Below are positions 9,166 to 35,173 of a DNA stretch of 64,000 nt, piece after piece. Numbering within the stretch: position 1 is the first letter of the stretch; each line of letters begins with the position of its first letter. The notes under the pieces were generated by a model. The model ran no database searches, was not told the origin of the DNA, and saw nothing but the letters and a program-made list of their open reading frames with translations. The translations under genes were made by a program, and so were the position numbers. Origin of the DNA: Acanthococcus lagerstroemiae (Eukaryota > Arthropoda > Insecta > Hemiptera > Eriococcidae). The stretch spans positions 5,563,683-5,627,682 of the forward strand of contig CM063108.1 of assembly GCA_031841125.1 (NCBI GenBank), written 5' to 3'.

Positions 9166-9364
9166 ATAAGACAATAACCTATAATAATGGACAACACTTG
9201 GCATTGAGAAAGAAAAATAGGTAGTGCAGCAGTCTGTACTGCGACTAAGGATGTAAGAGTAAAGTTAATTAGATATAGAGAATTGAGATCACCTTAGTAT
9301 AGATAACATATGCATACATATAGGTAACTAGTGTATTCTATTACATATCGGTAAAAGTTTTACG

Positions 9365-10045
9365 TTCAAGTCTGCTGCGCACTGGTGGGTCCTCAAGCAG
9401 CAGCGAGATCGTCTCTGGGTTAGGATGTTCATGTAGTCTTTACTCGTACTTTCTGGTTAAGCGTTCTGATTACGTTAGTAACTAGGTCGATATTTAGTTC
9501 ATGATGTAGTTGCTCGCTATGGAAGGACCACGACGCGCCTACCGTCTTCCGGAGGATGAGGTTTTGTGGACTTGGAGTATTTCAATGTTTGAGTTGGCGG
9601 AACATCCACATATGGGGGCAGCATACAACCATATAGGTCTTATCCCAGTAATATGTGCAGAATTCTTCTATTCGCAAAGGGAAACTCCATTTCTTGGCCG
9701 GAACAGCCAATATAAGGATCGAAAGGCGGATTTAACAGGTTTTTTTCCTTATTTTTTTTTTTAAATATGAGCACGCCAGTTGAGTTTGGAGTCCAAGTGG
9801 ACACCCATATACACTTAGCCTTATTGACGAGGGGGGCTGGAGAGCCGTCAATTATGGTTGGAGTATAGTTGTGGGGTCTCAGCGCAAAATCAGCCATAGC
9901 TGACTTTGCCTCGTTGATTTTGATTTTCCAGTTGCTTGCCCCAGACATACTGCATCGGGGGCTGTTGGGAGATTGGAAACTGATTATTGCAGTATGGTCT
10001 GCAAAAGAAGCGATGGTCGAGTTTGCCGGTGCTGTTATACGAGTA
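9365..10045 (-). pseudogene. Jockey-clade reverse transcriptase remnant
   Basis: The minus-strand translation from 10,045 reads NSTIASFADHTAIIS, where the catalytic FADD box has become FADH. Then NWKIKINEAKS, DGSPAPLVNKAKCIWV (equivalent of the PxSxxVKYLGV block), and after a frame break SLYWLFRP...PIWLYAAPICGCSANS, NIEILQ and NLILRKTVGASW. These follow the order of the RT palm, thumb and C-terminal blocks of Jockey-type LINEs. At least two frameshifts, an in-frame stop and the lost catalytic Asp make it a pseudogene. It interrupts the left half of the large inverted duplication and has no counterpart in the right half, so it was probably inserted after that duplication. Confidence 0.75.
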
Positions 10046-10049
10046 TCTA

Positions 10050-11850
10050 CTGTAAGTAGATATAAATTAATTTTTTATATTGTGAGTCAGCGTTTTCGAC
10101 GTTAGCCGGCAAAACGTGACAATAACTCAATTTTTTTTTTTTGTATTCTTTAGATAGAAAATTTTTGAATTAGTCGGTATTTTCAATTTTGAATGTCTGT
10201 TGGAAAAATGTAAATATGAATAGCAAAGCTTTTATTTCTGAAAATTTTTGCACCGATCCGATTTGGCAGGTTTTAATCTATTTCCACAAGTCCACAAATC
10301 GTCGACTTTTTCTTTTATGAAATTTTTTTTTTTGTGCTGGATGGAAAATTCTCGTGCTCGATATTATTGAGTCAGAATTTTTAACATTAGGTGGCAGAAC
10401 GGGAAAATAACTCAGTTTTTTCATATTGTTTGGATAAGAAATTTTGTATGAGTCGGAATTTTCAATTTTCAACGTCATTTGGCAAATTGTAAAAATGGCA
10501 AAGATTTTTTTTCTTTTTGAATGTTTTGCACTAATCTGATTAGGCATTTAACCTATTATATAATTTATTCGATTCCGCTCAAAATTTTATCTAGAAATTT
10601 ATCCTTATGGAATATTTTACGATAAATTTATTGCATTTCATGAAATATTTCACTGTGAAGGTTTTCATCCTGTTGAATGAAGTTTTGTCTAGTGCAGTGG
10701 TAAACCACACCTGTTCCATTCTGAATTTTCGGAGTCGAAATTTTTTGGTAAATTTGACCATTTCGTCAGCATTTGGCTCAGTCAGCAGATCAAGATAATC
10801 GTTATTTCATCAATTTTTATTTAATTAAAAATATTTTTCTGCAATCATTGAGTAGCATTTTCAACATTAGCCGACATTTTTTTTTTTTTTTGTATTTTTT
10901 GGCTATTAATTTTAATTTTACCTATCGTATATATCCAACCAATCTCTCTGTCTTGGACATGGTACTCCTCACTTTCGCTCTGTCACCAGTGGCAGGATGG
11001 AGAATTTTTGAATTAGTCGGCATTTTTAATCTTAAATGTCAGTTGATAACATGTAACGATGGCAAGGGTTTTTTTTCTGGTCAATTTTTATTTTATGAAA
11101 ATTTTATTGTGCTGGATTTAAAATTTTCGTACTCAGTATTATTGAATAAAAATTTTGAACATTAGCCGGCAAAATGTGAAAATAACTCAGTTTTTTTGTA
11201 TTGTTTGGATAAAACATTTTATATAAATGAGTCAGAATTTTCAATCTTCGTCATTTGGCAAAATGTTAATGTTAAATTGGCAAAGGTTTTCTTCTTTTGG
11301 AATTTTTTGCACCAATCTGATTTGGTATTCATTGTTATATACATACATTTTTCAATTTTTTGCATCGATCCGATGTGGCTAAAAATTTTGTCTTGAAATT
11401 TACTCTTATGAAATATTTTACGATAAGTTTCATTTCATGAAATATTTCAATGAGAACGTTTTCATCGAGTTGAATGAAATTTTGTGTTGAGTGCAGTGGT
11501 AAAAACCACCCTTCCTACATCCTGAGTTTTCCAGAGTCGAAATTTTTTAGAAAATTTGACCGTTTAGTCGACATTTTGTATCAGTAGTTAGCAGATCAAG
11601 ATAATCGTTATTTCATCAATTTTTTTAATTTAAATTTTTTTGTCCTGAATTTTCAACGTTAGCTTTTTTGGATGGACATTTTTTGAATTAAGAGTCGGCA
11701 TTTTCAGTTTTGAACGTCAGTTGGTAAAATGTAAAAATGGTAACGCTGTTCCTATGGAACTTTTTACATCAGTCTGATGTGGCATCTGAACTATTTTTAT
11801 ACATATACATAATTTTTCAATGTTTTGCATCGATCCGATTTGCAATTTTT
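10050..11850 (+). repeat. Array of 240-400-bp degenerate repeats
   Basis: A unit beginning AAATTTTATCTTGAAATT and ending GTTATTTCATCAATTT occurs at 8,905-9,130, 10,575-10,820 and 11,387-11,630. A reverse-strand copy lies at about 29,570-29,860. Between copies another degenerate unit recurs (GTCRGCATTTTCAAT..., TTAGCCGGCAAAATGTGA, TTTTTGCACCGATCCGAT), with a relative at 12,980-13,125. There is no coding potential. The expansion is confined to the left side. Confidence 0.65.
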
Positions 11851-12785: not shown

Positions 12786-13928
12786 ATTTGGTTATTTACA
12801 GTTAATCCGGTGACTGTGTTTGGTGTTCCCGAGAGTTTCCAAGTTATAGCAAGCACATCGCACTTATTTAGAATTATGGTGCTTGTTATTATCAGAGACT
12901 CAGCGTTGGGGCGTGTGTATGATATGGAGGGAGGGAGCCCCTCCCCACTGTTTCATCTAGTTTTCATTCGGTTCAAGCCACTAAGTCAGCGCATTTTCAA
13001 GATCAGCCGGCAGAATGTAGAAATGGCCCTCTCCCCTCTCATTTTTGCATCTGGTCGGCACTTTTTGGAAAATTTCCTTTCGGTTTCAGCCATTTAATCG
13101 GCATTTGGGACATCGTGTCAGCAATATATGAAAAAGTCCGTTCACGTGTTTTTTGTTTACTTGCCTACAAATTCTTTCGTCGAGTTGGCATTTTTGACCA
13201 ATTTATCTTCCTCCCCTCCACCTATCCAAGGGCTTGTGACGCTACTGGTCATCATTTGCTTCAGAAATAGGTACATGCCAGTAATTAAAATTTTTGACAC
13301 TTCATTTTTTTGACAGTTTCATCGATTGTAAAACCTTGAGTATAATACGCCTCGGCTTTTGTAATCTAAAATTGGGAAAAACTTCATCTAAAATTGAGGA
13401 GAAATGGCGCGTACACGCCTATGCAGGCGCGTACACGCCTATGCATTATGCTCGAGATTTTTTACGTACTAATGCAGTGTAAATAAAATAGCGATGTTTA
13501 ACCGAAAGGCTATAAAGTCGATGGTTTCTTTTTATTATTCTTATTTTCGGATCCGCCGATTACAGTAAATACATCGCATTTATTTGGAATCTTTGATGTG
13601 TTGTTAATATAATTTTTTTAAATTTGTTTACAGATACAACCATGATTGTGTTCAGTGTTCCGGATGGCGATTGCTTGAGTAATGGACTCACAAACTGCCC
13701 TTAGTCCAAAGTATGAACTTGTAGAAAATCGAATAAAACATTTCTTAATGTAGGCAGTACAACGAAACATTGAGCTTCACTAAAAACTCGAGTTTATATT
13801 GCCTTGAGAATAGGCGGTTACTTCTCGCGTAGCTTTCGACTTCCTCTAACAGTTAGCATTAATAATTCGTTTTCGATTCCCCCCTCCTACTAACAGCAGT
13901 TTGTGAATTTACTCCTCATTTGCTACTA

Positions 13929-14392
13929 ACTGTGAAATCTCGAGTGTAATAAATAGTTGCACACCCCGGGTTGGCATGCTTTAAAACAATGAAAAAACAC
14001 AATCGTTGTTTTAAAACAAATATGTGTTCTAAAACTTTTTTTTTGCTTAAAACGAGTTTTTTAACCATGTTTTTCTTGCTTTTTTTGTTTTTTTTCTTCT
14101 TTTTTTTGAGATTTTCTCACTCAGAACCTACAGAGACCAAAATAATTTGTCAAGTACAAATAAATTTCAGAATTTTACGCAAAAATTTTCAGAATGATTT
14201 GATATTAGTGATAGTTATCAATACGTTTATTTAAAAAAAAAAACACGTTTTAAAAGAACGAAAAAGAAACAACATTGATAACATGTTTTAAAACAAAAGA
14301 ACGTTTTAAAAGAAAACAAAACAGTGGTTTTGTTCTTTTCCAACCCTTCAGACAAATTGTGCGTACCTATGCTCGAGATTTTACTGTAGTTC
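13929..14392. mobile_element. pogo/mariner-like MITE split by a second element
   Basis: The ends are ACTGTGAAATCTCGAGTG (about 13,930) and GCTCGAGATTTTACTGTAG (to about 14,391), which are inverted relative to each other. They resemble the CAGTAAAACCTCGA ends of pogo/Tigger elements. About 13,969-14,347 is an insertion bounded by GGGTTGG and CCAACCC, full of TTTTAAAACA motifs. No duplication around the insertion could be confirmed. Confidence 0.4.
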
Positions 14393-14414
14393 TTCTTGCT
14401 ACTAAGTATGAATA

Positions 14415-15860
14415 AGTGAGAGATGCTTTACCAAAATGCAGTAAGTCCATTTTTTTTTCATGTTTGGATCTGCAAATTATAGTAGTTCCATCACATTTAT
14501 TTGGAATTTTGAATGGAATTTTTTGTTATTGTTTACAGGTACCCAAGTGATTGTGTTCAGGGTCCTGGATGGTGACTTTTTCAGGAGTGGACTCAGAAAC
14601 TGCCCTTAGTCCTAAACATGACTCGCTGAAAATAATTAAAATAAAATCATAATACAACTCGAGTTTATATTGCTTTAAGAATAGGCAGGCTACCTCTCGC
14701 GTAGCTTTCGACTTTCATTTTTATTTATTTGTTTATTATAACTAAGGGCAGTTTGTGAATTCACTCTTTATTTGCTGCTAATTGTGAAATTTCGAGTGTA
14801 ACAGTTGCACACCTCGTATTTTGTAATCCAAAATTGGGAGGAAAAGGATCTAAAATCGAGACAAATTACGCGTACACGCGTGCTAATTATGCTCGAGATT
14901 TTACTGTAGTTCTTCTTGCTGCTATTAAGCAGGTATGAATAATTGAGAAATGCTTCACCAAAAATGCAGTAAGTCCATGGTTTCTTCGATTTTTTTTTTA
15001 AATTATCATGTTCGGATTCCAGAGATAAAAAGAGCCCAAATCTTATTATAAATAATACCTTCCGATGAGGCTAGCTAGCTATTCACAAAAAAAGCAATAA
15101 GAGTCAAAACTGAAATCTGTCCCAGAAATGTGGACTTATTGTATTTTCGGGCCATTTCAATGAAGAAGAACACTTCAGAGAGGTATTTTAACGATATTGG
15201 CTAGTGAAAAGTTCAAATCTAGTCTTAAGAATAATAAAATCTATTGAGAATTCAGAGGCAGGGACTTGCGGTGTGTTTTCAAAAAGCTGCGCTGAAGTGT
15301 TCTTTCGTTATTGAAATCCGGTTTTACACGTCCTCTTTCTCCTATTCTGTTCATTTCTTTTCCTTTCCTCTCTCTCTCTCCTATTTTTTCGCCTTCCTGC
15401 TTTCTCTTCCTTCTCCCCAATACTTTCCTTAACTCTTCTTTCCCTCTATACTGCCCTTCCAATTTATTTGTATCTCCTCCTTCTCTTTTAATCTCTCCTT
15501 CTTTCCTCTCCATTCCTTCTCCTCTAACCCTACTTTCTTGTCCTTTCTTCACCCGTTTCTTCTACTTCTCTACCACATCATTCTTCTCTAAACTGCTTTC
15601 CTTATTTTCCTTTCTCCTTCTCCTTTTCCTCTCTCCTTTCTCCTCTGCCTTCCTCGTACCTCTTCCGTCTTATATCCCCTCTTATTTTTGTCCTTTCCCG
15701 CCATCTTCCTCCTTCTCTCCATCTCCCGCCTTTGCTCCCCTCCTTCTATAGTCTTCTTGCCTTTCTTAACGCCCTCCTTTCACCTCCTCACTCTTCTTTC
15801 TACCGCTTATTTCTTGGTATCCTTTGTGGTCCCTCTGTCCTCCTTTCCGCCTCTCCTTTT
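14415..15860 (+). repeat. Inner left arm of the giant palindrome
   Basis: About 1.45 kb of complex sequence is the reverse complement of about 27,418-28,880. It starts at AAGTGAGAGATGCTTTACC (mirrored just before 28,880) and runs through GGGACTTGCGGTGTGTTTTC (15,262; mirrored near 28,010) to TTGGTATCCTTTGTGGTCC (about 15,813; mirrored near 27,450). By eye only a few percent of bases differ, plus small indels such as an extra 20-odd bp in the right arm near 28,152. This makes the arms much younger, or better homogenised, than the outer arms at 7.8-9.2 and 29.5-31.6 kb. Confidence 0.85.
14771..14910. mobile_element. pogo/mariner-like MITE, intact size
   Basis: Same terminal pair as the element at 13,929-14,392, without the inner insertion: GTGAAATTTCGAGTGTAAC on the left, TGCTCGAGATTTTACTGTAG on the right, about 140 bp. 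It is part of the repeating unit, so it is duplicated passively. The mirror copy is at about 28,385-28,520. Confidence 0.45.
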
Positions 15861-18800
15861 CTTTTCCTTTTCCCCTCTTCCTTTTCTCTTTACTTTTTCC
15901 CATTTTCCCCTTTCCCTTTTCCCCTTTCCCTGTTCCCTTTTCCCTTTCCACCTTTTCCATTTTCCTTTCCCCTTTTTTCCTTTACCATTTTCCCTTTGCC
16001 CTTTTAATTTTTCCATTTTCCCACTTCCCACTTCCCTTTTCCTTTCCCTTTTCCATTTTCTCTTTTCTATTTTCTCTTTTCTCGTTTTCACTTTTCCTTT
16101 TTTCTTTTTCACTTTTCCCATTTCCCTTTTCCCTCCTGTCTCTTTTTCCTTTTCTCTTTTCCTTTTTCCCTTTTCCCTTTTCCCTCTTTCCTTTTCTCTT
16201 TTCCCTTTTCTCTTTGCTTCTTTTCTCTTTTCCTCTTTTCCTTTTTTCCTTTTCCCTTTTCTATTTTCTATTTTTTCCTATTTCCTTTTCCTCTTTCTCT
16301 CTTTTCCCTTTCATCATTTTCTCTTTTCTCTTCGCTCCTTTTCTCTTTTCCCTTTTTTGTCTCCTTTCTCCTTTTCCTTTTCCTCTTTTTCTCTTTTCCC
16401 TTTTCCTTCTTTCCTTTTCCATTTTCCCACTTCCCACTTTCCTTTTCCTTTCCCTTTTCCATTTTCTCTTTTCTCTTTTCTCGTTTTCACTTTTCCCTTT
16501 TTCCTTTTCCCTTTTTCTTCTTTCCTTTTCTCTTTTCCTTTTTTCCTTTTCCCTTTCTTCTATTTTCCATTTTTTCCTTTTTCCTTTTCCTCTTTTTCTC
16601 TTTTCTCTTCTCCCCTATTATCTTTTCCTTTTTCCTTTTCCTTTTCCTTTTCCATTTTCTCTTCTCTCGTTTTCACTTTCAACTTTTTCTCTCTTTCACT
16701 TTTCCCATTTCCCTTTTGTTTCTTTTCCTTTTGCCCTTTTCCCTTTTTCTTTGTTCCTTTTCTCTTTTCCCTTCTCTCTTTGCCTCTTTTCTCTTTTCCT
16801 CTTGTCTCTTTTCCTTTTGCCCTTTCCATTTTTCTTCTTTCCTTTTCTCTTTTCCTTTTTCTCTTTGCCTCTTATCTCTTTTCCTCTTTTCTCTTTTCCT
16901 TTTTCCCTTTTCCCTTTTCTATTTTCTATATTTTCCTTTTTCCTTTCCTCTTTTTCTCTTTTCCCTTTTATCTTATCTTTTTCTTCTCCCCTTCTCTCCT
17001 TTTCATTTTCCTCTTTTTCTCTTTTCCCTTTTCCTTCTATCCTTTTCCATTTTCCCACTGCCCTTTTCCTTTTCCATTTTCTCTTTTCTCTTTTCTCGTT
17101 TTCACTTTTCCCTTTTCTCTTTTTCACTTTTCCCATTTCCCTTTTCCCTCTTGTCTCTTTCCGTTTGCCCTTTTCCCTTTTCCTTCTTTCCTTTTCTCTT
17201 TTCTCTTTGCCTCTTTTCTGTTTTCCTCTTCTCTTTTCGTTTTTCCCTTTTCCCTTTTCTATTTTCTATTTTTTCCTTTACTTTTCCTCTTTTTTTTTAT
17301 CTTTTTCTCTTTTTTCTTCACCCCTATTCTCTTTTCCCATTTTTGTCTCTTTTGTCCTTTTCTTTTTCTTTTTTCCTTTTCCATTTTCTGTCTTCTATTT
17401 TCCCTTTTCCACTTTCCATTTTCCATTTCCCATTTTCCCATTTCCATTTTCCTTTTCCCCTTTTCTCTTTTCTCATTTCCCATTTCTTTTTCCTTCTTAC
17501 TTTTCTTTCTTTTTCCATTTTATTGTTTCCCTTTTCTCCTTTCTCTTTTCCTCTTTTTCTCTTTTCCCTTTTCCTCTTTTTCTCTTTTCTCTTTTCCTCC
17601 TTTTCTCTTTCCCTTTCTCCTTTTTCTTTTTTCCCTTTTCCTCTTTTTCTGTTTTTCCTTCTCTCCTTTTTCTTTTTTCCCTTTTCCTTTTCCATTTTCC
17701 CATTTCCCTTTTCCCTCTTTCCTTTTTCCCTTTTCTCCTTTTCTCCATTCCCTTTCTCTTTTTCCTTCTTCCCTTTTCCTATTTTTTCTCTTTTTCCCTT
17801 TCCCTATTTTTCTCTTTTCCTTTTTCTATTTTTCCCTTTTTCCTTTTCCTCTTTTCCTCTTTTCTCATTTCCCCTTTCCCTTTTCCTCTTTTTCGGTTTC
17901 TCTTTTCCCTCTTCTCTTTTCCCATTTTTGTCTCTTTTCTCCTTTTCTTTTAAATCGTTTTCTCTTTTCTCTTTTCCATTTTCCTTCAAGTTCCTTTTCC
18001 ATTTTCACTTTTCCTTTTTCCCTTTTCTCATTTTCCATTTCCCTTTCCTTTTTCCTTCTTTCCTTTTCATTTTCTTGTTTCCCCTTTCTCTTTTCCCTTT
18101 TACTCTGTTTATCTTTTTCCTTTTCTCTTTCCCCTTTTCCTCTTTCTCTCTTCCCCTCTTTTCCTTCTCATTTTTTCCTCTTTTACTTTTTCTCTGTTAT
18201 TTTTTTCTCTTTTCCCTTTTCCTCTTTTCCCTTTTCCCCTTTTTCTTTTTTCCCTATTTCCTTTTCCGTTTTCCCATTTCTCATTTCCATTTTCCTTCTT
18301 TCCTTTTCCATTTTCCATTTTCCCTTTTCTTCTTTTCCTTTTTCTATTTTTCCTTTTCTCTGTTCCCCTTTCTCTCTTTTCTCTTTTCCCTTTTCTATTT
18401 TTCCTTTTTTCCTTTTCCTCTTTTCTCATTTCCCCTTACCCTTTTCCTCTTTTTTCTGTTTCTCTTTTCCCTTTTCCTTTTTCTCTCTTCTCTTTTTTGT
18501 CTCTTTTCTCCTTTTCTTATAACTCTTTTTCTCTTTCTCTTTTCCTTCTTTCCTTTTCCATTTTCACTTTTCCCTTTTCCCTTTTCTTTTTTCCCTCTTC
18601 TCATTTTCCATTTCGTTTTCCTTCTCCATTTTCCCATTTCTCATTTCCCTTTTCCTTCTTTATTTTCCCTTTACCATTTTCCCTTTTCTCTTTTCTTTTC
18701 CCGTCTCAATTTTCCTCTTTCCCTTTTCCTTCATTCATTGTCCCTTTTCCCTCTTTCCTTTTCCCCTTTCCTTATCTCCTTTTACCATTCCCTTTTCCTT

Positions 18801-20835
18801 ACCTCCTTTAGCCTTTTCCTTCATTCCTTTCCCATTTTCCTTATTTCTTTTTCCTTTTTCCATTTTCTCGTTTCAAATTTCCAATTTCCCTTTTCTATTT
18901 TCCACTTTACCTTTTCCACTTTCCATTTTCTGTTTTCCATTTTCCCTTTTCCATCTTTCCTTTTCCATTTTCTGTTTTCCCTTTTCCCTCTTTCCTTTTC
19001 CCTTTTCCATTTTCTCTTTTCCCTTCCTTCTTCTCCCTTTTCCTCCATCCTTTTTCTTTTTCCTTCTTTCCTTTTCCACTTCCATTTTCCCTTTTCTCTT
19101 TTCTTCTCCTCCTCTTTTCCCTTTTCCTCTTTTTCTTGTTTTCCTTTTCTCTGTATCTTTTTCTGTTTTCCCTTTTCCTCTTTTTCTCTTTCCCCTTTTT
19201 CTCTTTTCCCTTTTCCCTTTTCCTCCTTTTCTCTTTTCCCTTTTCCTCTTTTTCTCTTTTCCCTTTTCCCTCTTTCCTTTTCCATTTTCTGTCATCCCTT
19301 TTCCCTTTTCCATATTCCATTTTCCCATTTCCATTTTCCCTTTCCCACTTTCCATTTTCTCATTTTCCCTTTTCCATATTCCTTTTCCCCCTTTTCTCAT
19401 TTCCCATTTCTTTTTCCTTCTTTCCTTTTCCATTTTATTGTTTCCCTTTTCCCCTTTCTCTTTTCTTTTTCTCCTTTCTTTTTTCCCTTTTCCCATTTCT
19501 CAATCCCCTTTTCCTTCTTTCTTTCCCTTTTCTATTTTCTCTTTTCTCCTTTTCTCTATCCCTTTCTCTTTTTCCCATTTTCCTCTTTTCCCCCTTCCTA
19601 GTTTTTCTCTGTTTCCCTGTCACTCTTTTCTGTTTTCTCATGTCCCCTTTAAGCCCTTTTCCTCTTTTCTCTTTCTCTTCCCTTTTTTCATTTTCTATTA
19701 TCTTTTTTACATTTTCCCTTTTCCCTTGCCCCATTTTCCTTTTCCTTCTTTCCTTTTCTCTTCTCCCTTTTCCTCTTTTCCCTTTTCTTTCTTCTCTTTT
19801 TGCTTTTCCTCTTTTCCCCTTTTTCTTTTTTTCCATTTTCCTCTTTCTCTCTTCTCCTTTTCCCTGTTCCCTTTTTTCTCTTCTCCCTTTTCCCTTTTCC
19901 TCTTCTTCTCTTTTCCCATTTCTCTTTTTCTTTTTTATCTTTTCCTCTTTTTTTCTTCTCTTTTCCCTTTTATCTGTTTCTCTTTTCTCTTCTCCCCTTT
20001 TCTCTTTTCCCTTTATTTTGTCTCTTTTCCCCTTTTCTTTTTCCTCTTTTTCCTTTTCCTCTTTTTCTTGTTTTCCTTTTCTCTGTATCTTTTTCTGTTT
20101 TCCCTTTTCCTCTTTTTCTCTTTTCCCTTTTCCTTCTTTCCTTTTCCATTTTCCATTTTCTGTCATCCCTTTTCCCTTTTCCATATTCCCTTTTCCCATT
20201 TCCATTCCCTTTCCCAATTTCCATTTTCTCATTTTCCCTTTTCCATATTCCTTTTTCCCCTTTTCTCATTTCCCATTTCTTTTTCCTTCTTTCCTTTTCC
20301 ATTTCTTGTTTCCCCTCTCTCTTTTCCCTTTTACACTGTTTCTCTTTTTCCTTTTTCCTTTTCCTCCTTTTCTCTTTTCTCATTTTCCTCTTTTGCTTTT
20401 TCTCTTTTCCTCTTTTTCTCTTTTTCCTTTTCCATTTTCCCTTTTCTCTTTTCCACTATTCCCTTTCACTTTTTCCCTTTTTCCTTTTCCTATTTTCCCC
20501 CCTTTTCTTTAACTTCTTTTTCTCTTTTCCCTTTTTTCTTTCCCTTTTTCCTATTCCTATTTTCTCCTTTCCCTTTTTCCTCTCTTTCTCATTTCTCTTT
20601 TCTCTTTTTCTCTTTTCTCTTTACCTCTTTTCCATATTCTCTTTTCTTTTTCTATTTTTCCCTTTTCCTTTTTTCTCTTTTCTCTTTTTTCTTTCCCTTT
20701 TCCTTCTTTCATTTTCTCTTTTTGCTTCTCATCTTTTTCCCTTTTGCCTTTCCGTTTTTCCATTTCTCTTTTCTTTTTCTTTCTTTCCTTTTCCCTTTTC
20801 TGTTGTTCTCTTTTCTCTTTTCCCTTAACGCTTTT
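15861..20835 (+). repeat. 5-kb almost pure polypyrimidine tract
   Basis: The + strand is nearly all C and T, built from degenerate CCCTTTT, CTCTTTT and CCATTTT words with rare A or G. Stop codons need a purine, so the strand is open in all frames over hundreds of codons. The resulting 'proteins' consist of Phe, Ser, Leu and Pro and are not genes. Segmental copies exist inside: CTTGTTTTCCTTTTCTCTGT starts near 19,135 and again near 20,067, and TTTCTGTCATCCC is near 19,287 and 20,158, so a block of about 0.9 kb was duplicated. Confidence 0.9.
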
Positions 20836-23800
20836 CCCGGAAGCAAAAAGAGAAAAAGGGAAAAGGGAAAAGTAGAAAAAAGAAAAGGGAAAATGGAAAA
20901 AGGGAAAGAGAAAAAGAGCAAAAGGAAAAGAGAAGAATGGGAAAGGGAAAAGAGAAAAAGAGAAAAGGGAAAAAGAGAAAAGTGAAAAAAGAAAAGAGAA
21001 AAAGAGGAAAGGGAAAAGAGAAAAAGAGAAAAAAGAAAAAGAGAAAAAGAGAAAAGAGAAAAGAGGGAAAAGAGAAAAGGGAAACGAGAACAAGAGGAAA
21101 AGGGAAAGGAAAAAGAGAAACAGAGAAGAAAAAAGGGAACAGAGAAGAAAATAGAGAAAAAGGGAAAAGGGAAAAGAGAAAAGGGAAACAGCTATGAAAA
21201 AAGAAAAAAGAGAAAAATAAAAAAATGGAAAAAAGAAAATGAAAAGGGAAAATGGAAATGGGAAAATGGAAATGAGAATTGGGAAATGTGAAAGGGAAAA
21301 ATAATTGGGAAATGGTAAAGGGATGGAAAAAAGAGAAAACGGAAAAGAGAAAAAGAGAAAAGTAAAGAGGAAAAGGAAAAAGAGAAAAAGAGAAGAGGAA
21401 CAAATAGAAACAAAGAAAAGGAAAACTAGAAAATGGAAATGGGGAATAGGGAAAATTGAAAAGGGAAAATGGAAAAGGAAAGACAAAAAAGGAAAAAGGA
21501 TAAGAAAAAAGAGAAAAAAAGGAAAAGAAAAAAGGGGAAAAAGAGAAAAGAGGAAAGAGAAAAGGGAAAAAGGAAAATGAGAAGGGAAAATCAAACAGGG
21601 AAAAGAGAAAAGGGGGAAAGAGGAAAAAGAATAAGTGGAAAGAAGAGGTGAAAAGAATAGGGAAAAGAGAAAAATAGAAAATAGAGAAGGGGAACGAGAA
21701 ATTGGAAAAAAGGAAAAGGGAAAATAGGAAATTGACAGAGAAAATGGAAAAGGGAAAATGGTAATGGGGAAAAGGGGAAAAAAGAGAAGAGAAGAAGAGA
21801 AAAGGGAAAATAGAAAATAGCAACAGGAAAATGGAAACAGGGAAAACGGAAATAGAGAAAAGGGAAAATGGAAAAAATAAAATAAAAAACGAAAAGGGGA
21901 AAATTGGAAATGGAAAAATGGAAATGAGAATTGGGAAACGTGAAAGGGAAAAAAGAGAAAACTGAAAAGAGAAAAAGAGGGAAAGTGAAAGGGGAAAAGA
22001 GAAACGAGCAAAAGAGGAAAAGGAAAAAGAGAAAAAGCGGAAAAGAGAAGAGGGAAAAATAGAAAAAAGGAAAGGAAAACGAGAAAATGGAAATAGGGAA
22101 AAGGGAAAAGGGGAAAATGGGAAAAGGTTAAAGGAAAATGGGAAAAGAGAAAACAGGAAAAGGGGAAAATGAAAAAGAGAAAAGAGAAAAGGAAAAAAGG
22201 AAAAGGGAAAATGAAAAAGGGAAAAGAGAAAAGGGAAAAGGGAAGACGGAAAATGGAAAATGGAAAAGGGAAGAGGAATATGGAAAAGGAGAAATGGAAA
22301 TGGGAAAAGAGAAAATGGAAAAGTAAAAAGAGAAAGGAAAGAAGGAAACGGAAAAATTGAAAAGGGAAATGGAGGGAAAAAAAAGAAAATGGAAAAGAAA
22401 AGAGGAAAACAGGGAAAGGGAAAATAGAAAAGGGTAAAGGGAGGAGGAAAAAGGTAAAGGGAAAATGAAAAAGGGAAAAGGAAAGAAAGAAAATGAAAAG
22501 TGGAAAGGGGAAAGGAAAGAAGGAAAAGGATGAAGGGAAAATAAAAAATGTAAAATGAAAAAGAGAAAAGGGAAAATGAACAAGGAAAAATGGAAAAAAG
22601 AAAAGGGAAAATAAAAAAATGGAAAACGGAAAATGGAAAAGTTAAAAGGGAAAATGATAGAAGGAAAAAGAATAAGGGAAATTGGAAAAGGGAAAAGGGA
22701 AAAAAGAAAAGAGGAAAAAGAGAAGGGAAAATAAAAAAATGGAAAACGGAAAATGGAAAAGGTAAAAGGGAAAATGATAGAAGGAAAAAGAATAAGAGAA
22801 ATTGGAAAAGGGAAAAGGGAAAAAAGAAAAGAGGAAAAAGAGAAAAGGGAAAAGAGAAAAAGAGGAAAGGGGAAAAGGGAAAAATAATAAATAGGAAAGG
22901 GAAAGGGCTAAATGGAAGTAGGGAAAATGGAAAAGAGAAGAGGGCAAACGGGAAAATGGAAATGGAAAAGGAAAATGGGAAATGTAAAAGGGAAATGGGA
23001 AAGGGAAAATGGCAAAAAGGGAATAGAGAAAAGGAAAAAGAGAAAAAGAGTGAAAGAGAAATGGGAAAAGCGAAAAGAGAAAAAAGAAAAGGAAAAATTG
23101 AAAATAAAAAAGGGAAACAGAAAACGGGAAAATGGAAATAGGGAAACGGGAAAATGGAAATAGGGAAAATGGAAAAGGGAAAATGAGAAATGGAAAAGGG
23201 AAAATGAGAAATGGAAAAGGAAACATGAGAAATGGAAAAGGAAAAATGAGAAATGGAAATGGGAAAATGAAAGGGGAAATGGAAAGGGGGAACTGAAAAG
23301 GAAAAATGGTAATAGAAAAAGGGAAAATGGAAAGGTAAAAGAGAAATGGGAAAAGGGAAACTGGAAAAAAGAGAAAGAGAAGAGAAAAAAGAGAAAAAGG
23401 AAAGGAGAAAAAGAGGAAAAGGGAAAAGAGAAAATGTAGAAAAGGGTAAGAGGAAAATAGAAAAGGGAAAAGTGAAATTGGGAACAGGATAATAGGAAAG
23501 GGAAAAAGAGGAAAAGAGAAAAAGAGGAAAGGGAAATAGAGGAAAAGGGAAGTGGAAAGGAAATAAGGAAAAAGAAAAAGGAAGGAGGGAAAGGGAAAAT
23601 TGAAAATGAAAGATGGAAAAGGGAAAATGGAAAACAGAAAGTGGAAAATGGAAAGTGGAAAAGGGAAAGTGGAAAATAAAAAAGGGAAAAGGGAAATGGA
23701 AAAATTGAAAGGGAAAATGGAAAATGGAAAAGGGAAAATGGAAAAGGGAGAATGGTAATGGGGGAAAGAGGAAAAGGGAAAATGGAAAAAAGAGAAAATG

Positions 23801-26800
23801 GAAAAGAGAAACGAGCATAAGAGGAAAAGGAAAAAGAGAAGAGGAAAAAAAGAAAAAAGAAAAGGAAAACGGGAAAATGGAAAAGGGGAAAGGGAAAAGT
23901 AAAAAGAGGAAAGAGAAAAGGTTAAATGGAGAAGGGAAGTGGAAAAGGAAAGACGGAAAAGGAAAAAGAAAAAGGAAGGAAGGAAAGGGAGACGAGGGAA
24001 GGGAAAAGGGGAAATAGAAAATAACAACGGGAAAATGGAAATAAGGAAAAGGGAAACTGGGAAAGGGAAAATGGAAATAGAGAAAAGGGAAATGGAAAAG
24101 GAAAAATGGAAAAAATAAAATAAAAAGGGGAAAAGGAAAAGGAAAATTGGAAATGGAAATGAGAATTGGGAAACGGGAAAGGGAAAAGTAAATAGGAAAT
24201 GGTAAAGGAAAAATGGAAAAAAGAGGAAACGGAAAAGAGAAAAAGAGGAAAAGGAAAAAGAGAAGAAGCAGAAAAGAGAAGATGGAAAAAGAGAAAAAAG
24301 AAAAGGAAAACGAGAAAATGAAAATAGGGAAAAGGGAAAATGGAAAAGTGAAAATGGGAAAAGGTAAAGGTAAAAGGAAAATGGGAAAGGGGAAAAGAGA
24401 ACAAGGGAAGAGAAAAGAAAAAACGGAAAAGAAAAAAAGGAAAAGAAAAAAAAGGAAAGGAAAAAGAGAACAGAGAAAAGGGAAAAGTTTAAAAGGGAAA
24501 ACGGAAATTGGAAAGGGAAAATGGGAAGGGAAAATCAAACAGGCAAAAAAGGAAATAGAAAAGAGGAAAAAAGAAGCAGGGTGGAAGAGGTGAAAGGAAA
24601 AGGGAAAAGAGAAAAGGGAAAGAGAAAAAGAGGAAAAGAGAAAAGTGAACATGAAAAAGGGAAAAGAGAAAACGAAAAAAGGAATAGGGAAAATGAAAAA
24701 GGGAAAATGGAAAAGGGAAGAGGGAAAATGGGGAAAGGGAAAGGAAAGAAGGAAAAGGAAAAATTGAAAAGAGAAACGGAAAGAGAGAAAAGGGAAAATG
24801 GAAAATGGAAAAGAAAAGAGGAAATAAGGGAATGGGATAATGGAAATGGGAAAAGGGAGGCGGAAAAAGGTAGAGGGAGGAGGCGGAAAAAGGTAGAGGG
24901 AAAATGGGAAACGGACAAGGAAAGAAGGAAAATGAAAAGGGGAAGTGGAAAGGGGAAAGGAAAGAAGGAAAAGGGAAATAAAAAATGTAAAATGAAAAAG
25001 AGAAAAGGAAGAATGAAAATGGAAAAGCGGAAAATGGGAAATGGATAAGGTGAAAGGGAAAATCATAGAAGGAAAAAGAATAAGGGAAATTGGAAATGGG
25101 AAAAGGGAAAAACAGAAAAGAGGAACAAGAGAAAAGGGAAAAGGGGAAAAAAGAAAAGAGGAACAAGAGAAAAGGGAAAAGAGAAAAAGGGGAAAAGGGA
25201 AAAAGGGAAAATAGGAAATAGAAAAGGGAAATGGCTAAATGGAAGTAGGGAAAATGGAAAAGAGAAGAAGGGAAACGGGAAAACAGAAATGGAAAAGGAA
25301 AATGGGAAATGTAAAAGGGAAATGGGAAAAGGGAAAATGGTAAAAAGAGAATAGAGAAAAGGAAAAAGAGAAAAAGAGTGAAAGTAAAATGGGAAAAGGA
25401 AAAAGAGAAAAGAGAAAAGGGAAAATTGAAAATAAAAAAGGGAAACGGGAAAAATGGAAATAGGGAAAATGGAAAAGAGAAAATGGAAGGGGAAATGGGA
25501 AATGGGAAAGGTAAAAGGGAAAATGGAAAGGTAAAAGAGAAATGGGAAAAGGGAAACTGGAAAAAAGAGAATGAGGAGAGGGAAAAGAGAAAAAGGAAAG
25601 GAGAAAAAAGAGGAACAGGGAAAAGAGAATAAGTAGAAAAGTGTAAGAGGAAAAGAGAAAAGGGAAAAGAGAAATTGGAAACAGGGTAATAGGAAAGGGA
25701 AAAAGAGGAAAAGAGAAAAAGAGAAAAGGGAAATAGAGGAAAAGGGAAAGAGGAAAAACAAAACTGGGAATCGGGAAAATAGAAATAGGGAAAAGGAAAA
25801 AGGAAAGAGGGAAAAAGGAAAAAGAGAAAAGGGAAAATGGAAAAGTGAAAAGAGGAAAAGAGAAAAGGGAAAATGGAAGAGGGAAGAGGGAAGTGGAAAA
25901 GGAAAGAAGGAAAAAGAAAAAGGATGGAGGAAAAGGGAGAAGAGGAAAGAGAAAACAGAAAATGGAAAAGGGAAAAGGGAAAAGGAAAGAGGAAAAATGG
26001 AAAATGGAAAATAGAAAAGGGGAAATGGAAAACAGAAAATGGAAAGTGGAAAAGGGAAAGTGGAAAATAGAAAAGGGAAAATGGAAAAGGGAAGTGGAAA
26101 AGGAAAGAAGGAAAAAGAAAAAGGATGGAGGAAAAGGGAGAAGAGGGAAGGGAAAAGAGAAAATGGAAAAGGGAAGAGGAAAGAGGAAAATGGAAAATAG
26201 AAAATGGAAAAGGAAAGATGGAAAATGGAAAACAGAAAACGGAAAATGGAAAGTGGAAAATAGAAAAGGGAAAATGGAAATTGGAAACGAGAAAAAGGAA
26301 AAGGAAATAAGGAAAATGGGAAAGGAATGAAGGAAAAGGGAAAAGGAGGTAAGGAAAAGGGAAAGGGAAAAGGAGATAAGGAAAAGGGAAAAGGAAAGAG
26401 AGAAAAGGGAAAATGAAAGAAAGAAAAGGGAAAATGAAAGAAGGAAAAGGGAAAGAGGAAAAAACAAGAGGGAAAAGGAAAAACAAAAGAGGGGAAAGGG
26501 AAAATTGAAAGGGGAAAGGGAAAAGGAAATATGGAAAATGGAAAAGAGAAAAGGAAAGATGGATATGGGAAAAGGGAAAAGGGAAAATGGAAGAGGGAAG
26601 GGGAAGAAGGAAGAGGGAAAGAAAAAGGGACAGGGGAAGGGGAAGGGGAAAGGGAAGAAGGAAAAGAGAAAATGAAATAGTGACGAGGGAAAAGGGAAAA
26701 AGAACAGGGAAGAGGAGTGAACAGGGAAGATGGAAATGGGAAATGGGAAAAGGGAAATAGGGAGGATTGAGGAGAAGGTAAGGGAAGAGGGGGGATTACT

Positions 26801-26990
26801 GTGGAAATGAAAGATGAAAGAAGAGGAGAATGTGAAGAGGGAGGAGTGAAAGGGAAGAGTCGAGAGGATAAAGGCGTGTAGCGGAGAGAGGAGAGGAGAA
26901 AGGGGAGAAGAGGAGAAAGGGGAGAAGAGGAGAAATGAGTGACGCTGATTAGAGGGGAGGAGAAATTAGGAAAGAGGTGATGAGAGAAGG
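20836..26990 (+). repeat. 6-kb almost pure polypurine tract
   Basis: After the switch at about 20,826-20,845 the + strand becomes almost all A and G (GGGAAAAG, GGAAAATGG, GAGAAAAAG words). It is the compositional complement of 15,861-20,835. Internal amplification is visible: an exact or near-exact 120-bp tandem pair at 22,611-22,850, related blocks near 25,055, repeated GAGAATTGGGAAA phrases near 21,272, 21,932 and 24,163, and repeated AAAAAGGATGGAGGAAAAGG near 25,915 and 26,118. The long minus-strand frames here are compositional artefacts. Confidence 0.9.
22611..22850 (+). repeat. 120-bp tandem duplication in the polypurine tract
   Basis: Two adjacent 120-bp units begin ATAAAAAAATGGAAAACGG at 22,611 and 22,731 and agree almost base for base. 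They contain the distinctive TGATAGAAGGAAAAAGAAT phrase. Confidence 0.75.
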
Positions 26991-27417
26991 GGTTGAGGAA
27001 CAAAGAAGAGGAGAGAAGTTCAGAGGTGAAGATTGAAAGGACAGGAGAGAAGAGAGAGATCAAGGAAGGAGACAGTGATTAGGAGGAGAGGAAACAGATG
27101 AGTAGTGAGAGGACAGGGAGGGTAGACAATGGTTCTCTCCTCTCTGCTCCTCTCACAACCCCTTCTCTCCTCCTGGAGGAGGAGGAGGATCAAGGAGAGA
27201 TAACAAGGAGGGAAGAGAGCATGAGGAGGCCACGGAGGTGGAGAGATAGGACAAGGAGTGCTCTCGCTCTGTCTCTCTCCCCTCTTCTTACTCCTTTCCA
27301 CTCTCTCTTCCTCCTCTTCTCCTCTCTCCTTAGAGAAAGGAGGAATGAGGATAAATAGGGGAAGGTAGAGGAGAAAGGAGGGAAATGAAAAGGAGGATGG
27401 AAGAGAAGGAAGTGAGG
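26600..27417 (+). repeat. Right-arm-only GA-rich segment with a pyrimidine island
   Basis: GA-rich sequence with more G than the core. It includes a CT-rich island (about 27,130-27,180 and 27,255-27,335) and small local hairpins such as TCCTCCTGGAGGAGGA. I find no counterpart at the matching place in the left arm (about 15.86 kb), so this is a right-arm insertion or a left-arm deletion. Confidence 0.5.
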
Positions 27418-28880
27418 AAGGGCGGAAAGGAGGACAGGAGGACCACAAAGGATACCAAGAAATAAGCGGTAGAAAGAAGAGTGAGGAGGAGAAAGGAGAG
27501 TGTTAAGAAAGGCAAGAAGACTAGAGAAGGAGGGGGAGCAAAGGAGGGAGATGGAGAAAAGGAGGAAGATGGCGGGAAAGGACAAAAATAAGAGGGGATA
27601 TAAGACGGAAGAGGTGCGAGGAAGGCAGAGGAGAAAGGAGAGAGGAAAAGGAGAAGGAGAAAGGAAAGTAAGGAAAGCAGGTTGGAGAAGAATGATGTGG
27701 TAGAGAAGTAGAAGAAACGGGTGAAGAAAGGACAAGAAAGTAGGGTTAGAGGAGAAGGAATGGAGAGGAAAGAAGGAGAGATTAAAAGAGAAAGAGGAGA
27801 TACAAATAAATTGGAAGTGCAGTATAGAGGGAAAGAAGAGTTAAGGAAAGTATTGGGGAGAAGGAAGAGAAGAAAGCAGGAAGGCGAAAAAATAGGAGAA
27901 AGAGAGGAAAGAAAAAGAAATGAACAGAATAGGAGAAAGAGGACGTGTAAAACCGGATTTCAATAACGAAAGAACACTTCAGCGCAGCTTTTTGAAAACA
28001 CACCGCAAGTCCCTGCCTTTGAATTCTCAATAGATTTTATTATTCTTAAGACTGGATTTGAACTTTTCACTAGCCAATATCGTTAAAATGCCTCTCTGAA
28101 GTGTTCTTCATCATTGAAATGGCCCGAAAATACAATAAGTCCACATTTCTTGGAAATAGGAAAAACTGCCTACAGATTTCAGTTTTGACTCTTATTGCTT
28201 TTTTTGTGAATAGCTAGCTAGCCTCATCGGAAGTTATTATGTATATAAGATTTGGGCTCTTTTTATCTCTGGAATCCGAACATGATAATTTAAAAAAAAA
28301 ATAAAAGAAACCATGGACTTACTGCATTTTTGGTGAAGCATATCTCAATTATTCATACCTGCCTAATAGCAGCAAGAAGAACTACAGTAAAATCTCGAGC
28401 ATAATTAGCACGCGTGTACGCGTAATTTGTCTTAATTTTAGATCCTTTTCCTCCCAATTTTGGATTACAAAATACGAGGTGTGCAACTGTTACACTCGAA
28501 ATTTCACAATTAGCAGCAAATAAAGAGTGAATTCACAAACTGCCCTTAGTTATAATAAACAAATAAATAAAAATGAAAGTCGAAAGCTACGCGAGAGGTA
28601 GCCTGCCTATTCTTAAAGCAATATAAACTCGAGTTGTATTATGATTTTCTTTTAATTATTTTCAGCGAGTCATATTTAGGACTAAGGGCAGTTTCTGAGT
28701 CCACTCCTGAAAAAGTCACCATCCAGGACCCTGAACACAATCACTTGGGTACCTGTAAACAATAACAAAAAATTCCATTCAAAATTCCAAATAAGTGTGA
28801 TGTAACTACTGTACTCTGCGGATCCGAACATGAAAATAGAAAAACAACTGCATTTTGGTAAAGCATCTCTCACTTATAGT
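27418..28880 (-). repeat. Inner right arm of the giant palindrome
   Basis: Reverse complement of 14,415-15,860. It includes the mirror of the third exon-like unit (acceptor and GTQVIVFRVLDGDFF...NCP-stop on the minus strand near 28,680-28,755) and the mirror pogo-like MITE near 28,385-28,520. Identity ends abruptly near 28,880, after CTCTCACTTATA. Confidence 0.85.
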
Positions 28881-29470: not shown

Positions 29471-29559
29471 ATGAAAAAAAAAGTGACTGCAAAAGGCTCG
29501 TTATTGATCCCAAAAACTGGGTTATTTTCACAATATTCTGGCTAATGTTGAAAATGCTG

Positions 29560-31600
29560 AATCAATGATACAAGAATTTTCCATCCAACACAAAAATAAT
29601 TGCAATAAAAAAATGGACGAAAAAGATTTTCTTGATTTGCTGACTACTGGTCCAAAATGCCGACTGAATGGTAAAATTTGCTACAAAACTAACTCCAAAA
29701 ATTCGGGATGAGGGAAGTGGGCTACCACTGCAATTGACACAAAATTTCATTCAACTTAAAAATTTTCAGATTAAAATATTTTCATGATCATAGAACAAAA
29801 TTTATCGTGTAATATTTCATAAGGATGAATTTCAAGAGAAGATTTTGAAAATTATCCATAATTTTTAATGGTAATAACGACATTGCCTTTTATCTCTCTT
29901 CTCTCTATATTATACTAAAGTAGTAAAGTCCGCCGCCGCCACTTCCGGGAGCCCACTGCGGGTTGCCTACCCTGCCCCTTAGTTGCTCATTTCCCCAGGG
30001 ATAATAACGTTATTGCCGTTAATTGGTAAACAAATTTCATATTTGTAATTTATTTTAAAATTTTTCAGAAAGTATTTCAAAGAAAGTTTTGAAAAATAAA
30101 TTTCATAAAATTTAACGGTGGCCCTATCCTTCACTACCAGCTTTACAATATTTGGGTAGTTTCTGTGGAGTTTAGTGAATATCCCAATTGAAAATTTTCC
30201 ATAGAATGAAATTTATCGTGAGCATAAAATAAAACGTATCGTGAACTTCAGGGTAAAATTTTAAAATTTATTCATAATTCTTACGGAGATAATTAGAGTG
30301 CAGCATAATATGAAAAAAAAAATGACAAGTGTGCATAAAATATGACTTTTTTTTACCCCAAATACTGCCCAAATATGCGCTTTCCTAGAAATATGTATCA
30401 TTATATGGGTATCATTTTACAGCTTTTTAAAAAAACCCATTTCATAATTGTTGTTCAAATTTTATTCTAAACTGAAACGCCTGAGAAAACTGAATAAAAA
30501 TAAAATATTTCAAACCACAAAAAAAAAATGATTTGCCCAAAAAAATTTTCAACTTGTTTTCTTTTTCTACCTAAGTTTGTTTTTGTTTTACACGGATGAA
30601 ACGCAAAATAGCCGTATTTTGGACAATTTTTGTGCAATTTTTGTGAATTTAGCAAAATATGGGGGGGGGGGGAAGAGAGTAAAAGATACGAAATTCGCAT
30701 TATTACTCAAATATGTGAAAAAAATGTTTAATTTATTTAAACATTTTTCACGAAGTATTTCAATAAAAATGTTGTAAAATAAATTTCACAAAATTTAACA
30801 ACAGTGGCCTTCACTATATAGGTATTTGAAAAAATAGTTTTTCATATAAATAAGTGGAACACTAGGCAACCTTACCCTGCTAACGAGGGGGAGAAAGAAG
30901 TAGAAATAGAAATAGGCCAAAAATGCTAAATTAGAAAATTTTAAATGCTGACTCAAACTCAAAAACTATTAAACGTAAAAAAAAAGTAAAAGCCGTCGCC
31001 GAGTGCTCGCAATACAAGAATAAAATGTGCACATACCTCAAATATTTGTTGTTTCAGCAGTTAATTTTTCACTCCTTTACTTCTTGGTTCTGTTGCTGCA
31101 TTGCTCATCTCCTCCTCGGCATTGATGTCCCGTCCATTAAACGAATATCTGCGATTTAGAAACTTATTAATAGTAGGTAAGCGGCAAGGCGAAAATGAAA
31201 ACTGCGTAACTTGACCACTGATTGAATAAACTTGATTCGATAATCATTAGAGTTAAATAATACACCATAGGCTTCTTCCTCTGCCATACAGGTAATCCAA
31301 ACTAGTGACCCATGTACTTACATGAATGCACACGAGAGGACGGTGTGGCTTCCGGACGAGTTAGTTAAAACTAAACTGCGTCAAAATACCAACCGTGCCG
31401 ACCCACAGATAAAACACTATTGACCGTAAAATCCGAAAGTAAAGAATCTGGAAAACCCAAACGATGATATACCTGTTTCTTAGTGAGAATTCGAGAACAA
31501 CAGCTATAAGTTGCCAACCAACTAGAGGTTGTTAGTGATGTTTTGACAGGTAACAATAAGAAGGTTCCGTCATAGGAACAAAACAACGCCGAAATACAAA
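29560..31600 (-). repeat. Outer right arm of the large inverted duplication
   Basis: Opposite-strand counterpart of 7,800-9,165 (anchors listed there). The order is conserved, but the sub-block holding AAATTTTGTGAAATTTATTTT is present twice (about 30,730-30,810 and 30,050-30,120). A GCATATTTT-type segment (30,296-30,440) and a G12 run (about 30,661) lie between the copies. In the exon-like part the minus strand from 31,286 reads MAEEEAYGVLFNSNDYRIKF; the left copy is frameshifted relative to this. Confidence 0.7.
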
Positions 31601-33180
31601 GGAGGCGGTTCGAAGATTCTTAACAGCTACGGACAATTTGTCACTCGTGAATAGTGAGATTGCTCAATACAAAATGTTTCACCTTGGCAGTGCTAAGCCC
31701 TATTACGAGGATCGTTTAAAAAGTAAGATAACGAGTCCAAATAAAGAAAAACTAGAAGAAATCAGAAAAAATTATTCTACTGAAATATGTTTAGACAGAT
31801 CCATGTATCACTTCTCGATTTAATTTCCGAGTCGATTTAAACATTTGTCCGACCGGTGCTTAGTGTATCTGTAGGGGAGAAGGTGGACCACGGGACCAAA
31901 ATTTTGTTTTTTATACTACAGGAAGAATGTACGTTTGACTAAGAAAAAACTCGATAAAATTAATTAGGGCATTTCTAGATCGGAGAAATTAGTTATTGAA
32001 AAAAAAACGTGTTTGCTCCTATGGTACAACATGAGTATTCTACCATGGGAATGGAGGTGTTTTATCATGAAACCATGTAAAAATCCCATAAGAAAAATGA
32101 AAAAAGTTGGAATAAGATTTCGGAAATTTATATTATTGAAGTTACATTCCAACAGTCCAACCAGTGTCAAAAATATGCAGGTTGAAGAATAAAAAATTAT
32201 TCACGACACCGCTTATGGCCTTCTCCATCTTTTCATAATTAACTTTTGGTTTTTTCACACCAACTGTACTTCGAGACCATCCTAGAAACCTAACTTCTTA
32301 TGTGCAAATGCTTGCATAAGCGTTCGTCAGTCGCCAGTATACTCATTTTCCCCATTTAAAATACACAGTGAATTTCACATGGACTCGCCAGCGTTCAAAT
32401 AAATAAAAAAATCTGTGGGAAGGGGGAAATCTGGAAGGATCTGCGGGGGAGTGGGCAGCAAAAAATTTCCGGCTCTTTTCCTTCTGCCATTTCCCTCCTC
32501 AAAAAGATTGTCTGGATCCGCGTCTGTACTCTGTAGTAGGTATATTGTTTTTCTTACATTTTCCTGTTTTCAAGATATGAATGAATGGTCTGCCAAATTC
32601 TCAGATCGTTTTACCCAGCTAAAATGTATAATCAGCACGATTTAAAAATGACCCATTTTCCATTTCAAATGCATTGGAGCCGATTTTCTATACCGCGGTG
32701 TATTTCTATTTCTTCTATTTCCTTTTTGATTTAAAAATAAAAATAAAGCTTCGGCCCTCAACTTTCAGCTTTTCAAATTCTTTGTTCACTTTCAACTTTT
32801 GAATTAATTCTCTAGAAATCGTTTTGTTTCGGTTTAGAACTTTCAACTTTCAAATAACTTTCAAACCCTGCTTTCACGTCTATTACAAAACTTTCATCAC
32901 GATATTCCACTCGCTACATTAGCGCTTCTGGCGAACACACTGAAACTTCGAATTCAACAGTGTTGCACATTTAGAGAAACGAAATACCAAATTGAGACAC
33001 AGACGGAACACCGCATAGGCAACACGCATATTCATCGATATCAAAAATCAGTCGGCGTGAAAAGTGATAATAATCATCATTCCTAGGTTCTTCGTTCCTG
33101 CTGCATGTTCGGAATTGAATGAAAATATTACTGTGCGCCAGAACTCGAGTAATCATGATTCAACAGTGAAAAACGTCAGC
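31601..33180. other. Intergenic DNA with a reverse GCCGAAAGC-type block
   Basis: A 61-codon open frame at 31,638-31,823 has no recognised family and no splice signals. 32,745-32,880 holds CTTTCAACTTTC-type repeats ending CTTTCAAACCCTG, the reverse complement of the family at 5.7-7.7 kb. Nothing else is supported. Confidence 0.35.
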
Positions 33181-33289
33181 CAGAACCAGAAATGCGCAGG
33201 TAGCAGGGCCACCTTCATATTTGCTGTTTATTAGTTCGTTAATTATAGATTTAGTGATGGAAGTATCCTAGCGGAATTCACCCGGTACG

Positions 33290-34179
33290 ATGGCGGCAGC
33301 AGAGAGTACATTTTCTGCGTGGTTGCTTACCAAGCTAAATGCGATGAAAGTGGATGAGAACGTACTTTTGAACTACATACTGTCGATAGTTGAAGGCGAT
33401 GAACCTCGAGACGAGAAGCTGGAGATCCTGCAGTCGGTGTTGATCGATACTGGATCGTCGGTAAGTGAATTGAGCCGGTCACGAACTTACTTTCATTTCA
33501 CATTGTTTGTACAACGCGAGCGAATGTTTCAGGAGGATGAAGTAAACGAGCACTGCGTAGAGATACTCGATAAATGGCAGCAAGCGTTATCGAGCACTTC
33601 GCAGCAAAAAAGCCCCGAGAAGGTGATCGAAAATGTTGATCAGAAGTTAGCTCGGTTACTGGTTTCAAACGTACGATTGGATGAATCTACGGCTCAAGCG
33701 TGCAAGTACACGGACGAAGAGTTAAAGATACGGGAAGCCATTTTGTCGAAATATAGTCACGTGAGTTACATCGGTATTAATGAGTCTGTACTTCAGGAAT
33801 CTCCTGTAAGACTAGTTTCGAGAAAATTAATGTTCGCGCTTTCAGGCAGACGAACCCGAAGACGATGACTGCGTCGAAGACGAGACGGATAAACTTCACG
33901 ACTTAGAAAAGAACACGAACGCGTCAACTATCCATCAAGCTGAGAAAGAGAAACGAGAAAAGGCTAAACTGGAAAATCAAAAGAAGAAAGAACGCGATAA
34001 GATGGAAAGGTGAGTTCAGTTACTGGCTGGTAATTTGCAGGTGAATTAATTTGATCGGTCCGGGTTTCACTGAAACGCTTGTATTCACGTGTTCAAGGGA
34101 GAAGCAGAAACTAACGCAGCAAGAAAAGAAAGAGGCAAGAAGAAAGCGAGCACAGAAAGTCGAGCATCATCGTAAATAG
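33290..34179 (+). CDS. CCDC43: CCDC43, four exons, complete
   Basis: Coding exons 33,290-33,460, 33,533-33,760, 33,846-34,009 and 34,098-34,179 join in frame to 214 residues and a TAG stop. The introns are 72, 85 and 88 bp, with GTAAGT, GTGAGT and GTGAGT donors and CAG, CAG and AAG acceptors. The start MAAAESTFSAWLLTKL is followed by a compact helical N-terminal region (to about residue 75) ending in EDEVNEHCVEILDKW, which matches the PWI-like domain of CCDC43 proteins. The middle TDEELKIREAILSKY and the Lys/Glu/Arg-rich C-terminal coiled coil (about residues 155-214, ending VEHHRK) follow the family layout. The length is close to the roughly 220 residues I recall for vertebrate CCDC43. The biochemical role is poorly defined in general; no neighbour clarifies it. 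The ATG sits in a fair context (GGTACGATGG), and an in-frame upstream extension is not needed. Confidence 0.92.
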
Positions 34180-35088: not shown

Positions 35089-35173
35089 ATATGAGGAGTT
35101 ATCTGTCAAAAGGTCCCCTGACGAATAGGAATCCCATTTGTCAAGGGCCCTTTTGACAGATAACTCCTCATAT
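35089..35173. repeat. Short foldback, 34-bp arms
   Basis: The left arm 35,089-35,122 (ATATGAGGAGTTATCTGTCA...) is the reverse complement of 35,140-35,173 apart from two or so differences near the loop. The spacer is about 17 bases (GAATAGGAATCCCATTT). Confidence 0.8.

Follow-up and report, generated by a model that had tools for sequence, protein, structure and literature searches.

The window, a 64,000-nucleotide stretch of the Acanthococcus lagerstroemiae genome, holds at 14,415-28,880 a 14.5-kb palindrome whose core runs from pyrimidine into purine, and it raises the question of whether such a structure is peculiar to this locus or recurs elsewhere in the genome. In our reading, held with moderate confidence, the locus belongs to a family of giant foldback-like palindromes with strand-polarised cores that is dispersed in the genome. 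No published description of this family was recognised in the open-access literature searched, by titles and abstract openings.

The palindrome is real, and the coordinates given for it in the initial annotation were accurate to about 3 bases. BLAST aligned the near-identical inner arms reported there (14,412-15,886 with 28,877-27,387) at 94.5% identity over 1,499 columns, gaps included, and the three gapless blocks listed reached 97, 98 and 96%. The core of about 11 kb, with a strand change at its centre, was recovered as two arrays of degenerate heptamers, but it is not all pyrimidine on one side and all purine on the other as had been described: the pyrimidine array is 93.9% pyrimidine (longest pure run, 125 nt) and the purine array 91.9% purine (longest pure run, 101 nt). 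Array and arm touch on the left side, and about 620 bp intervene on the right. Outside the element, none of the 263 bins of the window (150 bp each) had a purine fraction below 0.25 or above 0.75, so the core is not a product of chance. Core-to-core matches were 70-80% identical and lay mostly off the palindrome axis (25 longest of 376). The k-mer profiles of the core halves had words in common, and their order was not collinear; on this ground, and with no base-for-base mirror found between them, the idea that the halves are mirrored copies was rejected. The core halves pair poorly, so the window copy could form only in part the one enormous hairpin that had been proposed. The proposed triplex potential was borne out at the level of sequence, with 290 and 271 near-mirror centres counted against 60-112 and 55-111 in resampled sequences (six resamples each), which supports a triplex-prone core.

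The 14.5-kb palindrome forms the enlarged middle of an inverted repeat that is both longer and older. In a BLAST self-comparison of the window (32 of the 62 matches shown, core-to-core pairs excluded), inverted matches continued in order outward of the inner arms at 69-76% identity, pairing 8,868-9,106 with 29,877-29,632, 8,405-8,537 with 31,111-30,977, and 7,924-8,266 with 31,561-31,215. Other family loci matched the window, with gaps, at about 7.8-15.7 kb and 27.5-31.8 kb. Since both the inverted matches and the matches to other loci extend outward, the element spans about 7.8-31.6 kb, i.e. about 24 kb. Of the two arms the left is the longer; it has additional repeated units and unmatched stretches, and its part at about 9.2-10.0 kb was matched by few other loci. 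The features of the window copy are listed below, alpha and beta being the two arm lineages described further on.

7,816-8,262, + strand: left arm outer end, alpha, approximate element start; homology to other alpha ends begins at about 7,816-7,917
8,408-8,479, + strand: exon-like block, ATG ... GAG then GTATG; reading frame not conserved among copies
8,868-11,842, + strand: left-arm units repeated internally, matching one another directly and 29,512-29,877 in inverted orientation
13,530-13,968, + strand: diverged extra arm unit in direct orientation, 68-69% identical to both 14,452-14,816 and the right arm
14,412-15,886, + strand: left inner arm, alpha, containing a repeated unit at about 14,530-15,000 and a pyrimidine tract of the family type that starts near 15,346
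15,861-20,838, + strand: pyrimidine-rich heptamer array, unit CTTTTCC, 697 copies, 66% matches
20,839-20,853, no strand: central strand switch between the two arrays
20,854-26,763, + strand: purine-rich heptamer array, unit AAAAGGG, 834 copies, 66% matches
26,764-27,386, no strand: about 620 bp of purine-rich sequence found in the right half but not in the left
27,387-28,877, - strand: right inner arm, of alpha type; groups as sister with the left inner arm, which probably overwrote it
29,512-29,877, - strand: part of the right arm that matches the left-arm repeated units in inverted orientation at 70-75%, an older pairing
30,977-31,619, - strand: right arm outer end, beta, carrying a degenerate copy of the exon-like block
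31,627-32,275, - strand: outer flank common to several beta-type ends elsewhere, matching the L012, L014, L017 and L011 ends; possibly a separate repeat

Some 1 kb outside the right outer flank is a CCDC43-like open frame (33,272-33,868, + strand), whose protein had a top match of 63% and matched those of the scale insects Parthenolecanium corni and Planococcus citri at 57% and 56%, as would fit a hemipteran host. Farther out, the window contains two self-complementary stretches, perhaps small inverted-repeat elements (35,089-35,173, 89% over 85 bp; 41,139-41,323, 93% over 185 bp), and a tandem repeat of 2.7 copies of a 63-bp unit (44,373-44,541).

The initial annotation had suggested a genome search for other loci with the arm, and such loci were found. 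Three arm pieces were used as queries against 658 Mb in 438 contigs (the window lies on C3), yielding at least 44 hit clusters on 8 contigs. Each search scored no more than 40 candidates, which makes these counts lower bounds; neighbouring hits were thinned before clustering. Both strands were present in 27 of the at least 44 clusters, and the arms pointed inward in 27/27. Four of the clusters matched a query in its outer flank only, possibly a separate repeat (C2:55.4 Mb, C3:16.0, C5:49.7 and C6:63.3). Contig C5, of about 70 Mb, carries 21 of the at least 44.

We mapped 21 loci, namely the window copy and 20 others, and the arm-pyrimidine-purine-arm layout was clear at 15. At L012, L017 and L019 purine adjoins the right arm with no clear pyrimidine tract, and at L015 and L018 pyrimidine adjoins the left arm with no clear purine tract. 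The remaining locus, L022 (G000:C5:44,025,000-44,034,900), had no core, arm units in a single orientation and three matches to the outer exon-like block, and may represent a tandem relative of the arms that lacks the palindrome. For nine further places the tract strand was predicted before their sequences were read; an extreme tract was present at 8/9 and on the predicted strand at seven, L046 having its tract on the opposite strand and L051 no extreme tract. The cores of L015 (3613-6292) and L046 were nearly pyrimidine only, with the usual strand switch missing. Family copies measured about 13-24 kb where both outer ends were matched, and their long inverted blocks were 67 to 98% alike. Between L024 and L027, about 1.7 Mb apart on C5, the central 10 kb were 88-93% alike and the outer parts about 79% alike and rearranged, with sharp, symmetric borders; this sharp-bordered central likeness hints at transfer between loci.

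The recurrence also bears on whether the palindrome is an artefact of a chimeric or collapsed contig, which we consider very improbable. Such cores assemble poorly, and runs of N occur in or near the core at L018, L019 and L023 (counted as pyrimidine in the layout map and as purine in the core comparison). The window, however, contains zero N bases, its arms differ by substitutions and indels, the flanking arms are of different lineages, and the layout is repeated on several contigs.

The change from pyrimidine to purine at the centre is a consequence of the inversion of the second arm. Where the arms of a copy are very similar, their match takes in the pyrimidine tract: the inverted arms of L009 match over 2.85 kb at 98.2%, those of L027x match at 97.4% and leave no more than about 1 kb between them, and those of L024x match over 13.4 kb at 97.7%, with the loop absent. 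The window arm ends in a tract resembling the family's tract, and the heptamer array looks like an addition to this family-type core. C content on the pyrimidine side was 0.36 overall in the window array versus 0.44-0.56 at other loci. An exact 20-mer from the heptamer array had 12 copies genome-wide, 11 of them at the window locus (the sole exact copy elsewhere is at G000:C3:45,632,183); judged by this one exact 20-mer, the 11-kb array looks almost private to the window locus.

The age of the palindrome was addressed through arm phylogenies, built on short alignments of 200-560 bases. The outer-end tree held 20 sequences, each arm being represented by its first forward match of 200 bases or more, and separated an alpha clade (the window left end, L010L, L013L and L020L; support 1.0) from a beta clade of 12 ends including the window right end (support 0.776). 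L013 and L020 each carried one alpha and one beta outer end. The inner-unit tree, with 34 sequences kept after matches below 400 query bases were left out, gave the same alpha/beta split at L011, L013, L016 and L020, and the reverse at L015 (clade support: alpha, 0.929; beta, 0.996). Inner-unit type agreed with outer type wherever both were scored at L011, L013, L015, L016 and L020. Several copies combine an alpha arm with a beta arm, so the palindrome predates the spread of the family. A beta-like unit within the alpha-side arm of L012 and a third inner-unit group (L010 right, L019, L023 and L025) leave room for some mixing of arm lineage with unit position.

The window copy departs from this agreement. 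Its inner arms are alpha sisters (support 1.0), at a distance of 0.04 from each other versus 0.25 to the next sequence, although its outer right end is beta. The inner arms are thus each other's closest relatives and the outer arms are not; with outer arms of two lineages, the sister inner arms are more alike than the age of the palindrome allows. At L009, too, the inner arms are alpha sisters and the outer left end, the one outer end compared there, is beta. The likeliest cause of the mismatch between inner and outer ancestry in the window, as far as the trees can tell, is gene conversion inside an old palindrome, and the simplest course is that the right inner arm was probably overwritten by the left. 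A unique recent palindrome, produced by break repair or by template switching at a replication fork as the initial annotation had entertained, would account for inner arms at 96-98% in gapless blocks. This origin does not fit, because the outer arms fall in two lineages shared with other loci; the outer left and right arms are nearer to different loci than to each other, and the identical architecture occurs at many loci. We regard it as extremely unlikely.

The arms are internally repetitive, with direct self-matches, and one arm block (block B) gave 61 matches in 21 loci. In 14 hand-picked unit copies, the repeated arm units carried splice-like signals, and the outer ATG block precedes GTATG. 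A frame, YPSDCVQCSG.RLLEEWTHKLPLV, looked promising as evidence of coding arms, with a third-position excess over about 61 alignments (rows above 92% excluded), and is possibly ancestrally coding; indels, stops and shifts among copies speak against coding arms. Windows of equal periodicity contain stops, noncoding windows reach similar third-position ratios, and only 9/106 indels in a second block (block A) were multiples of three. No kept reading frame or intact gene was found in the arm blocks examined. Among 10 hand-picked open reading frames, Pfam returned a single domain above the cut-off, a reverse transcriptase carried by an insert that only one of the two L027x arms contains, and no transposase or host-gene domain. 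The arms are apparently non-coding. Rfam and tRNA scans (the latter with the bacterial code) of the window returned no matches.

At the outer ends, many alpha and beta ends have a common boundary. Homology runs beyond it in several beta ends and between L013L and L020L, and the outer limits of homology differ between loci. No target-site duplication or fixed termini were identified at the outer ends compared.

These observations bear on the main rival explanation, which holds that a decayed multi-exon locus formed a convergent inverted pair and was copied genome-wide by segmental duplication, not by transposition. The splice-like signals and ATG block in the arms, the exon-like frame with its third-position excess, the variable outer borders with extra flank common to some loci, and the gathering of 21 clusters on C5 are all consistent with it. 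Against it stand the broken frames and the low proportion of block A indels in multiples of three, the stops in windows of equal periodicity, and the occurrence on 8 contigs with unrelated flanks, a pattern more usual for mobile repeats. We treat a decayed convergent locus spread by duplication as a possible but less probable account.

The same arms might instead belong to a functional hairpin or convergent double-stranded RNA locus for small-RNA silencing, with the palindrome under selection. Convergent arms with splice-like signals would yield complementary transcripts, and the architecture recurs; yet the arm profile (L027x itself and rows above 95% identity excluded) contained no strongly conserved block, and covariation in the unit was unfavourable (+1.17; double changes at 4/43 pairs). 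Such a function appears improbable. The covariation result also led us to reject an RNA structure of two stems for the repeated unit. Each repeated arm unit (window 14,530-15,000) holds two smaller inverted repeats, with stems of about 27 and 17 bp, that are retained in many copies.

The reading as a giant foldback-like family was then compared with known systems. Among the origins put forward in the initial annotation, a foldback-type element is the best fit: long inverted arms make up nearly the whole element, many dispersed copies exist (4 of the at least 44 clusters being recognised by outer flank only), and arms and pyrimidine-to-purine core recur, but neither a transposase nor a target duplication was found. 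In appearance and evolution the family resembles giant foldback elements; we do not claim that it is one of them. The Drosophila virilis foldback element Tetris has arms of up to 1,735 bp with 220-bp repeats that seeded satellite-like arrays (PMC4079207). The present family resembles it in its long inverted arms with internal repeats, lack of apparent coding capacity, dispersal, and expansion of repeats to satellite-like arrays; unlike Tetris, it has arms of several kb, a pyrimidine/purine simple-sequence core and undefined ends. Galileo, of the P superfamily, has arms of about 0.3-1.26 kb and a transposase encoded by some copies, and conversion between its long arms has been proposed (PMC3573991). 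Long arms, tandem-repeat growth and chimeric copies with two arm groups are common to both, whereas neither transposase nor target duplication was found here. The large palindromes of mammalian sex chromosomes (PMC8981503) hold genes and have arms above 99%, which arm-to-arm gene conversion keeps alike although the palindromes are old. The present palindromes are likewise old and have arms probably kept alike in this way; unlike them, the present family is apparently non-coding, lies on 8 contigs and has blocks from 67 to 98% alike.

Taken as a sequence of events, a palindrome with inward arms and a pyrimidine tract running into a purine tract would have formed before the family spread, and a foldback-type mode of transposition may then have dispersed the family. 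Arm-to-arm gene conversion would later have homogenised the inner arms in some copies, the window copy included, and the window centre may have expanded into its 11-kb heptamer array by slippage, to which triplex or hairpin structure may have contributed. More speculatively, these palindromes could represent a giant foldback class in whose life cycle the strand-polarised, triplex-prone core takes part: by stalling replication or opening into a hairpin it would make one arm overwrite the other again and again, so that old copies stay palindromic. We put this forward as a doubtful extension.

The copies form a natural palindrome series in one genome, with the same layout and inverted blocks from 67 to 98% alike. 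If our reading holds, whether a triplex-prone core promotes arm-to-arm conversion would become testable, as would the means by which palindromes persist in the long term on several chromosomes and by which satellite-like arrays arise from a foldback-like repeat.
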